Shown piece by piece: positions 14,434 to 40,223 of a stretch of 40,767 nt of DNA (positions are counted from its first letter, which is position 1; each line of letters opens with the position of its first letter). The DNA is from Alphaproteobacteria bacterium. Lineage in GTDB: Bacteria > Pseudomonadota > Alphaproteobacteria > UBA2136 > JAPPOO01. The notes beneath the pieces are model-generated. The model was given only the letters and a program-made list of their open reading frames with translations, was not told the origin of the DNA and searched no databases. The stretch covers positions 1 to 40,767 of the forward strand of contig JAPPOO010000007.1 in NCBI GenBank assembly GCA_028817875.1, read 5' to 3'. The position numbers and the translations under genes were made by a program.

Positions 14434-14757
14434 ATGCAAAATCTAAAAACTAACGAACCTATACGCTGTAAAGGTAAAACACTCATCAATGGGGAAACAA
14501 TACCCACGAACATAGTTATTTTTGTGGAGCGTGACGGTGATAACCTCACTTTCACATCCAAAAGAAAAAACACACCAGTCCACCAGCTGATTTACAACGA
14601 GGTCGAAGCTGCTATTGCCGCAGCTAACTTCCTTGGAAGTAAAAAAGTAGACCTTAAAATTGGACAACACACTGTAAACTTTAATCTAAATGACTTCAGA
14701 CAAATCTGCCCAGAAGTTTTCAATAAAGAACGCAGGTCTGGAAAAATACTTATATAA
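14434..14757 (+). CDS. Small hypothetical protein
   Basis: 108-codon ORF with likely ATG at 14434, followed by a terminator. Confidence 0.5.
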   Translation: MQNLKTNEPIRCKGKTLINGETIPTNIVIFVERDGDNLTFTSKRKNTPVHQLIYNEVEAAIAAANFLGSKKVDLKIGQHTVNFNLNDFRQICPEVFNKERRSGKILI

Positions 14758-14776
14758 AAAATTATCGCGAAAAATT

Positions 14777-14816
14777 GCGGGGACTGTAACCAAGTACAGT
14801 TCCCGCTAAATTTTTT
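14777..14816 (+). terminator. Intrinsic terminator
   Basis: GCGGGGACTGT-aaccaagt-ACAGTTCCCGC then taaaTTTTTT. Confidence 0.75.
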
Positions 14817-32682: not shown

Positions 32683-32798
32683 AACCTTATCCTTCTCCCC
32701 CGCAGGGGTCTAAAAAGTGAAAACTAAATGTTTCAACGGCGTAAAGCCGTCAATAAATTTGTACGATGTATACTATTAAGAAAGCAAACCTGTCCAGA

Positions 32799-33143
32799 AA
32801 AAATCAGGCTGGTAAGGGAATTTCGAGTAGGAATATAACCTCCTCAAAACTCAACGCTGCACCAGCCCTAGCAAGTAGAAATTTTAAAAGAGTTTTTTGC
32901 TAAAATATTCAGCAAAGATTCTCGGCCACAAGAATCCCCCTTTAAGCGGAACCTCTCTAGACACAGGCCCTTCCTACTTGCGGTTATTCAAAAAGTAGCT
33001 GGGCGGCAAGAATAAGAGAACCTCCTTACATGCCGTTATATTTTGCTTCACCCCAGCAAAGAACGATTAAGTCAAAACTCTTACTGATCTCCATCAGGTA
33101 AGAAGAGTTTTGTAAGGGAAACACGCCTCCCCCTTATCGTTCA
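32799..33143 (-). ncRNA. Candidate structured RNA: four consecutive stem-closed elements each carrying a GGAGG-type motif (strand tentative)
   Basis: Closing stems GGCTGGT/ACCAGCC, GCAAGTAG/CTACTTGC, GCTGGG/CCCAGC, GAACGATTAAG/CTTATCGTTC. T6 follows the last stem on the minus strand. Confidence 0.4.
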
Positions 33144-33178
33144 AAAATTTTCTTGTAAAAAAGAACCAGTTGAGGAGA

Positions 33179-33207
33179 CATATAAAAAAACACTCTCAAA
33201 CAATCAA
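33179..33207 (-). promoter_or_regulatory. Possible promoter for the 32.8-33.1 kb structured RNA
   Basis: Minus strand TTGATT-N17-TATATG. Confidence 0.35.
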
Positions 33208-33224
33208 GTATACAAATCTGATCC

Positions 33225-33310: not shown

Positions 33311-33462
33311 TGCGGAGCTGATAACTCTTAAATCCTAATTCTGCGTCTAGATTACACACCGACATAGATGTGCCTTTGGTCCAATGACCGGGGTGCAACA
33401 TTATGTCCAAGCGAAAGCTGAAAAGTGTTGTGCTGCGGGATTTAGCAGTTATCAGCCCCGGT
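33311..33462 (+). ncRNA. ssrS: 6S-like RNA candidate
   Basis: Long closing helix GGAGCTGATAAC/GTTATCAGCCCC plus TAAATCC/GGATTTA, large internal region, GAAA-capped hairpin; directly followed by an intrinsic terminator. Confidence 0.5.
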
Positions 33463-33484
33463 CGCCTTTATTGGCGACCTTTTT
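33460..33484 (+). terminator. Intrinsic terminator of the 6S-like RNA
   Basis: GGTCGCC-tttatt-GGCGACC-TTTTT. Confidence 0.9.
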
Positions 33485-33491
33485 AATAAGC

Positions 33492-33725
33492 ATGAAAAAA
33501 TCCTCTCACCCCATCGACATCCACGTTGGCAAACGCTTGAAACAGCAGCGTTTACTACAAGGCATCTCCCAAGAAAGCCTCGCTAAACAACTTGGCATCA
33601 CCTTCCAACAAATCCAAAAATACGAAAACGCCACCAACCGCATCAGCGCCAGTAAGCTGTACCAACTCTCCCAAGTCTTAGAGGTTCCCATTCAATACTT
33701 TTTCGATAACGAACTACAGCACTGA
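33492..33725 (+). CDS. XRE-family helix-turn-helix protein (possibly truncated)
   Basis: VGKRLKQQRLLQGISQESLAKQLGITFQQIQKYENATNRISASKLYQLSQVL. Confidence 0.85.
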   Translation: MKKSSHPIDIHVGKRLKQQRLLQGISQESLAKQLGITFQQIQKYENATNRISASKLYQLSQVLEVPIQYFFDNELQH

Positions 33726-33845
33726 AAACATGGTATCTTAACGGTTCCCAACATCCCAAATGCGAGGAGCATTTGGTTGTTGTGGGGGCTGGGGTAGTTT
33801 ACCCCAGTAGCCATTTGCTGGCTTCGCCAGCGAACTGGCTATCAA
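33726..33845. repeat. Multi-hairpin palindromic element
   Basis: Three hairpins: CCAAATG-cgaggag-CATTTGG; TGGGGTA-gtt-TACCCCA; GCTGGC-ttc-GCCAGC. Confidence 0.45.
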
Positions 33846-33996
33846 AAAAAACTACCAAAAATCACCACAACTTTCCGAAAAACCAAGCAACATAACCACC
33901 AAAGAACTTACCCTCATCAAAAACCTCCGAGAATTAAAACCCGCCCAACAACAAGCCCTCACCAGTCTCATCAACAAATTAACATCAAAAGATTAG
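33811..33996 (+). pseudogene. Start-less open frame resembling an XRE-protein C-terminal tail
   Basis: ...ELAIKKNYQKSPQLSEKPSNITTKELTLIKNLRELKPAQQQALTSLINKLTSKD*, in a different frame from the upstream HTH ORF. Confidence 0.4.
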
Positions 33997-34007
33997 CGAA
34001 ACATTCA

Positions 34008-34157
34008 ATGTCCTTCTAAGCGAAAATTTGGGATAAATTGTTTCATTTCTTTGAACAGAGCACGCTGCGCCGTGTACATAGAAGTACACAAGCAGTGGGA
34101 TATGAGCAAAAAATGGAAGAGGTTGCCCAAAGACGTTGCTTAGAAGCAAAAATTTAG
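34008..34157 (+). pseudogene. Degenerate short reading frame with palindromic core
   Basis: MSF[TAA]AKIWDKLFHFFEQSTLRRVHRSTQAVGYEQKMEEVAQRRCLEAKI*; contains GTGTAC-atagaa-GTACAC. Confidence 0.35.
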
Positions 34158-34304
34158 CATTTTTTGGTATTTTTTGGTCAAAACTTACACTTTTTTAACC
34201 TCGAAAATCACTTTTTAATACCGTTTTATCCCTTATTCACACTCATTTATCATTGATTTTGACGCTTTTTGCGTCGCAATTTTTTTTGAACAAAAAAATG
34301 AAAA

Positions 34305-39751: not shown

Positions 39752-39782
39752 AAAAAGCCCCACTATCTCTAGCAGAGCTTTT
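39752..39782 (-). terminator. Intrinsic terminator after rnpB
   Basis: Minus strand AAGCTC...GGGCTT followed by TTT. Confidence 0.6.
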
Positions 39783-39784
39783 AT

Positions 39785-40152
39785 AATGTACCGATAAGCC
39801 GGGTTTTGTCGTGGGCCATCATTCATCTAAAAATACTTTTACAAGTATTCTCTTGCAGCCTACCTATGAATACCGCGAGCAACGGAATATATTCAGCGTT
39901 TGGCCTTGCATGCCCTAAGGTTTACCAGCCGCAGCCTGTTGCCAAGCCACGCGGTGGGCTTTTACCCCACCCTTTCACCTGTACCGCCTGACAATATCAT
40001 AATTGACGGTAGTCTACTCTCTGCTGCACTATCTGTCATAATACCGTCTCCAGTACCATGCCTGAGATTTCCCCAGTAGGGTGCTCTACCATGCCCGGAC
40101 TTTCCTCAAGTACATCCTTGCGGAGTTTATACTTGCGATGACCTAGTACACT
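39785..40152 (-). ncRNA. rnpB: RNase P RNA (bacterial class A)
   Basis: Minus strand GAGGAAAGTCCGGGC near the 5' end and GACAAAACCCGGCTTATCGGTAC at the 3' end; P1 pairing AGTGTAC/GTACATT. Confidence 0.96.
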
Positions 40153-40223
40153 CACCTATGTAACGAAAGAACAAAACAAAAGCAAGTCTTCCATCAAATA
40201 GAAAGCTAGGCTATGGTCTCCAT

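Follow-up and report, generated by a model that had tools for sequence, protein, structure and literature searches.

A hairpin-rich intergenic stretch behind a recurrent minus-strand promoter motif is a candidate terminated leader in an alphaproteobacterial genome

The intergenic stretch 32799-33207 of the window (the whole 40,767 nucleotides of alphaproteobacterial DNA that were analyzed) holds an array of four hairpin elements, E1 to E4. The array is probably a structured non-coding sequence that would be transcribed from a minus-strand promoter motif with further copies in the same genome. Our preferred, though tentative, reading is that the stretch represents the untranslated, hairpin-rich front part of a minus-strand transcript, probably a terminated leader. 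Because no relatives of the array were found, and because nothing shows that it titrates CsrA or blocks ribosome-binding sites, we consider it a modest candidate and not a new RNA class. The initial annotation had proposed a regulatory RNA of one of these two mechanistic types, composed of related stem-closed elements that display repeated, unpaired GGAGG or CCTCC motifs.

Four hairpin elements of unrelated sequence

As the initial annotation had reported, the stretch contains four inverted-repeat elements with their motifs, together with the T tract and the promoter-like site, at the coordinates given in Table 1. In E4, a stem GAACGATAAG/CTTAATCGTTC encloses two hairpins, one of which is CTGAT-GGAG-ATCAG. 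The view that the elements are related to one another did not hold, since pairwise comparison showed no similarity beyond chance level (p = 0.023 for the best of the six pairs), and for the same reason we rejected the possibility that E1 to E4 are copies of one unit. The interior of the array offered no protein reading, the open reading frames (ORFs) inside it being at most 45 aa long.

Table 1. Coordinates of the array, its flanking features and other features of the window, with the promoter-motif copies found elsewhere in the genome.
Feature	Position	Strand	Sequence, basis or remark
E1	32805..32869	-	long hairpin, arms GGCTGGT 32807-32813 / ACCAGCC 32861-32867
E2	32871..32981	-	branched hairpin, closing arms GCAAGTAG 32871-32878 / CTACTTGC 32974-32981
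E3	32997..33059	-	stem GCTGGG 32998-33003 / CCCAGC 33052-33057, inner CGGCA/TGCCG
E4	33061..33144	-	arms GAACGATTAAG from 33061 / CTTATCGTTC 33133-33142, one bulge
T tract TTTTTT	32798..32803	- (32803-32798)	three bases past the E1 hairpin; candidate intrinsic terminator
Orphan gene, 221 aa	32017..32682	-	next gene downstream of the candidate leader
Divergent promoter motif	33179..33215	-	TTGTATAC-TTGATT-N17-TATATG (TTGATT 33207-33202, TATATG 33184-33179); genome-wide motif recurrence
Other promoter-motif copies	C30:5859-5895, C60:2137-2173, C57:1871-1907	+	pattern search
Other promoter-motif copies	C84:15893-15929, C89:13377-13413	-	pattern search
sRNA-Xcc1-like structured RNA with intrinsic terminator	33311..33485	+	divergent from the array, outside it
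Hairpin-rich repeats	33731-33850, 34023-34304		dozens of genome copies, often near RNA+XRE cassettes
RNase P RNA, class A	39779-40154	-	RF00010, 234 bits

The whole stretch folds more stably than its dinucleotide shuffles on both strands, with −99.7 kcal/mol (z −3.17) on the plus strand and −129.1 kcal/mol (z −3.32) on the minus strand. The values for single elements, which are inflated because the elements were picked by their inverted repeats, are z −5.4 (−29.0 kcal/mol) on the minus and z −2.8 (−19.6 kcal/mol) on the plus strand for E1, −4.2 and −2.3 for E2, −1.6 and −2.4 (both weak) for E3, and −3.6 and −4.95 for E4. Thus, E1 and E2 are markedly more stable as minus-strand RNA, whereas E3 and E4 are, by z-score, slightly better as plus-strand RNA. 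Folding energy alone was therefore rejected as a strand test, each strand being favoured by the z-scores of two elements. In an unbiased scan of 740 segments of 110 nt, 3-4% reached z < −3 and the segment with E4 ranked 11th, and the region is therefore structured without being an extreme outlier.

A recurrent promoter motif favours the minus strand

The assignment of TTGATT-N17-TATATG as a minus-strand promoter gained support from the genome itself. The composite motif TTGTATACTTGATT-N17-TATANG occurs six times at no more than one mismatch in the 1.58-Mb genome. No match has precisely two mismatches, and a limit of three yields eight matches versus one for the reversed control pattern. Each of the five copies outside the window precedes an orphan ORF, which begins 89 (C30), 8 (C60), 94 (C57), 169 (C84) or 108 nt (C89) downstream. 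In the window, 496 nt separate the promoter from the orphan ORF, and the array fills most of this gap. What lies upstream of the array in the direction of the orphan gene, as expected of a leader, is thus a predicted promoter whose motif has five further copies before ORFs. The copies in C30 and C60 sit in the closest two counterparts of the adjacent cassette, where TATA at N17 is retained and the flanks diverge; the window, C30 and C60 copies are not independent of each other, because they belong to paralogous cassettes.

A palindrome, GTATAC, lies just upstream of the −35 hexamer in the promoter set and may be an XRE operator. The leaders of the orphan genes in C89, C30 and C57 resemble each other (C89 carries, for example, ATCTTTCATGCTTTTT, and the other two have similar words); this shared sequence may form a hairpin, and it is absent from the array.

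A generic consensus scan found no promoter-like site at threshold on either strand and missed the minus-strand promoter, which has 8 of 12 consensus matches. On the plus strand, the same scan detected no terminator that could serve the array; the sole terminator nearby (33460-33479) is that of the neighbouring plus-strand RNA. The recurrence of the promoter motif before ORFs, together with the lack of a plus-strand promoter-like site at threshold and of a plus-strand array terminator, leads us to favour the minus strand by roughly three to one, a figure that reflects judgement and not computation. The strand, which the initial annotation had left unsettled, is therefore less uncertain than that annotation had assumed.

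Terminator candidate and downstream gene

The T tract expected on the minus strand after the last stem is present. When the E1 hairpin (−29 kcal/mol) was folded together with the UGAUUUUUU that follows it, internal loops and a UGA before the U tract were seen, so this terminator candidate is not canonical; the consensus scan missed it. The protein encoded by the next gene has an N-terminus that resembles a signal peptide (judged by eye, with no predictor), and neither a Pfam match nor a homologue in the order or in plasmids was found for it.

The anatomy is that of a terminated leader, because a predicted promoter, four hairpin units, and a stable last hairpin with a T tract are followed by a gene in the same direction. 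From this arrangement we infer that the stretch is transcribed and terminated and that it controls the gene downstream, as follows. RNA polymerase would start near 33172 on the minus strand, from a TTGTATACTTGATT-N17-TATANG promoter that belongs to the small genome-wide set and diverges from the adjacent promoter of the RNA+XRE cassette. The transcript would fold into four hairpin units in the order E4-E3-E2-E1, and E1 plus UGAUUUUUUC would probably keep most polymerases from reaching the orphan exported-protein gene (32682-32017). Acting in cis, the element would be a terminated leader of the attenuating kind and would also yield a non-coding RNA of roughly 375 nt. The stability of E1 and E2 as minus-strand RNA and the T6 directly behind E1 count for this reading; the better plus-strand z-scores of E3 and E4, and the share of 110-nt segments that fold equally well, count against it. 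So does a possible second minus-strand promoter, TGGACA-N18-TATACA at about 32796-32767 (seen by eye only), which could uncouple the orphan gene from the leader.

As a class, long structured 5' leaders with intrinsic terminators (attenuators) share with the array a promoter, hairpins, a terminator-like hairpin and a gene in the same direction; the array differs in that its terminator candidate is not canonical, that it has no recognized ligand or leader peptide, and that no homologue was found. The antitoxin RNAs of type III toxin-antitoxin systems (ToxI type) likewise consist of a promoter, repeated RNA units and a terminator, followed by a gene. The array has a promoter, units and a terminator candidate before an orphan gene, but no single sequence is repeated in tandem across its units, and the protein encoded downstream lacks a Pfam match and has the signal-peptide-like N-terminus.

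GGAGG and CCTCC motifs

Element by element, the motifs are AACCTCCTC, AACCTCTCT, AACCTCCTTA and CGCCTCCCCC. The claim that GGAGG or CCTCC is repeated was borne out in part: by statistics that are post hoc, GGAGG on the minus strand (3 observed versus 0.52 expected, P 0.01) and CCTCC on the plus strand (3 versus 0.66, P 0.04) are mildly enriched, but CCTCC is present in only three of the four elements, the motif of E2 being merely AACCTCT. The claim that the motifs are unpaired proved mostly wrong for the minus strand, where CTGAT-GGAG-ATCAG alone is clearly open among six GGA motifs. It fared better on the plus strand, where ACCTC is more accessible than in shuffles (1.60 versus 0.22, P about 0.01, likewise post hoc).

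These figures bear on the two mechanisms first put forward. A CsrA/RsmA sponge on the minus strand would titrate CsrA through GGA in hairpin loops. A search of the genome for csrA, as the initial annotation had advised, found it at C5:9683-9841 (67.7 bits, cut-off 27), and the well-exposed loop of CTGAT-GGAG-ATCAG and the three GGAGG motifs also fit a sponge. However, GGA is not enriched on either strand (minus, 6 observed versus 7.75 expected, P 0.86; plus, 4 versus 4.68), the minus-strand GGA motifs are no more accessible than in shuffles, and five of the six are at least partly paired. The array thus resembles sponges of the CsrB/RsmZ type in being a multi-hairpin sequence with some GGA in a genome that encodes CsrA, and differs from them in that its GGA motifs are unenriched and mostly paired. 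We consider a sponge highly improbable.

An anti-Shine-Dalgarno sRNA of the cuckoo/alpha-r14 type, read from the plus strand, would pair with ribosome-binding sites through AACCUCCU-like seeds on unlike stems. The layout recalls alpha-r14, a group in which each sRNA forms three hairpins; their stems are unrelated, but they have one anti-Shine-Dalgarno motif in common, the ultraconserved CCUCCUCCC, in unpaired regions (PMC10746234). The array plus strand likewise has successive hairpins with unrelated stems and a common CCTCC-containing motif, as in NfeR1 and the cuckoo sRNAs CcsR1-4; its ACCTC motifs are both more numerous than expected (3 versus 0.5) and unusually accessible, although this statistic is post hoc; and the genome encodes Hfq, even though the alpha-r14 member NfeR1 needs none. 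Against such an sRNA, CCUCCUCCC is absent, the motif is degenerate in E2 and E4, the plus strand lacks both a promoter-like site at threshold and a terminator for the array, and there is no Rfam match. This type, too, is unlikely.

Several minus-strand motifs read as a stop codon followed by GGAGG (TAAGGAGG, TGAGGAGG), and minus-strand ORFs of 25, 26 and 32 aa are present, as they would be in an operon of very short ORFs, remnant or active, with GGAGG as real Shine-Dalgarno sites. Most of these motifs, however, are badly spaced from a start codon, and the ORFs cross hairpin arms. The ORFs of related loci gave weak short matches; the single strong one concerned a short reading frame beyond the hairpins, at the right edge, which is where the paralogous cassette starts. 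Such an operon is very improbable. Only slightly less improbable is that the array is a lineage-specific stand-alone RNA, the cargo of the cassette's divergent promoter in place of orphan genes, that would act in trans via GGAGG hairpin decoys; if so, these Shine-Dalgarno-like hairpins would bait anti-Shine-Dalgarno sRNAs or the 16S tail.

Searches for relatives of the array

The array DNA has no second copy in the rest of the genome, and the matches seen across all searches were short and of low complexity. No homologue was found in 60 relatives (short weak matches only) or in 386 other genomes of the class, the search of 387 genomes that included its own giving two matches of 26-30 nt, and nothing was found in phages or plasmids. 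The array belongs to no Rfam family, and no match came near the gathering score of any family. A search of the named genomes for hemH returned distant relatives only, at most 51% identical. Sequence comparison with two of the genome's repeat families led us to reject kinship with either.

The genome is rich in hairpin repeats and the searches found nothing related to the array, and for these reasons a decayed, non-functional origin is a serious rival to the terminated leader. On this account, the stretch would be hairpin-rich intergenic DNA without RNA function, made of palindromic or decayed remnants that lie behind a promoter by chance. Hairpin-rich repeats exist in dozens of copies in the genome, some directly to the right of the XRE gene of the window; E1 to E4 are unlike one another and are conserved in nothing that was searched; and the structure excess is moderate for the window. 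Against it stand the lack of a second copy, the lack of kinship with either tested repeat family, and the placement of all four stems one directly after another, flanked by a recurrent promoter motif on one side and a T tract on the other. We regard such an origin as possible, though somewhat unlikely.

The neighbouring RNA family

The structured RNA at 33311-33485 directly precedes an XRE/HTH_3 gene that ends at 33725. A covariance model (R1), built from 13 copies with a structure predicted from the same alignment, gave 43 matches in the 1.58-Mb genome (these 13 included), all with E below 1e-11; in the 13-copy alignment, 25 of the 42 predicted pairs are kept with both sides changed. Within the order, 15 of the 17 remaining genomes carry the family as well, and at E <= 0.01 it reaches 14 more genomes elsewhere in the class, though the weakest of these hits is marginal. 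Copies from the same genome as the window score 37-50 bits against sRNA-Xcc1 (Rfam RF02221) and thus fall short of the gathering score of 53, which one copy from another genome of the order passes at 56.2 bits. Two copies of the family also score 30 bits with RF03163 (C4 antisense targets), again under the gathering score. The XRE type of the window lies close by in 11 of 25 inspected copies, and several of the remaining inspected copies are followed by different small ORFs or by repeats.

The array itself falls outside this family: R1 finds nothing in 32799-33207, and its matches in the window are 33311-33485 (124 bits) and, at chance level, 14757-14806 (6.4 bits, E 0.46). Of the two, we find the neighbouring RNA the more interesting.

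If the array is transcribed, it would be a long hairpin-rich leader that separates an orphan exported-protein gene from a shared promoter, and its interest would be local. The wider context matters more, namely a promoter set that feeds orphan genes and a 43-copy sRNA-Xcc1-like RNA in a genome of 1.58 Mb.
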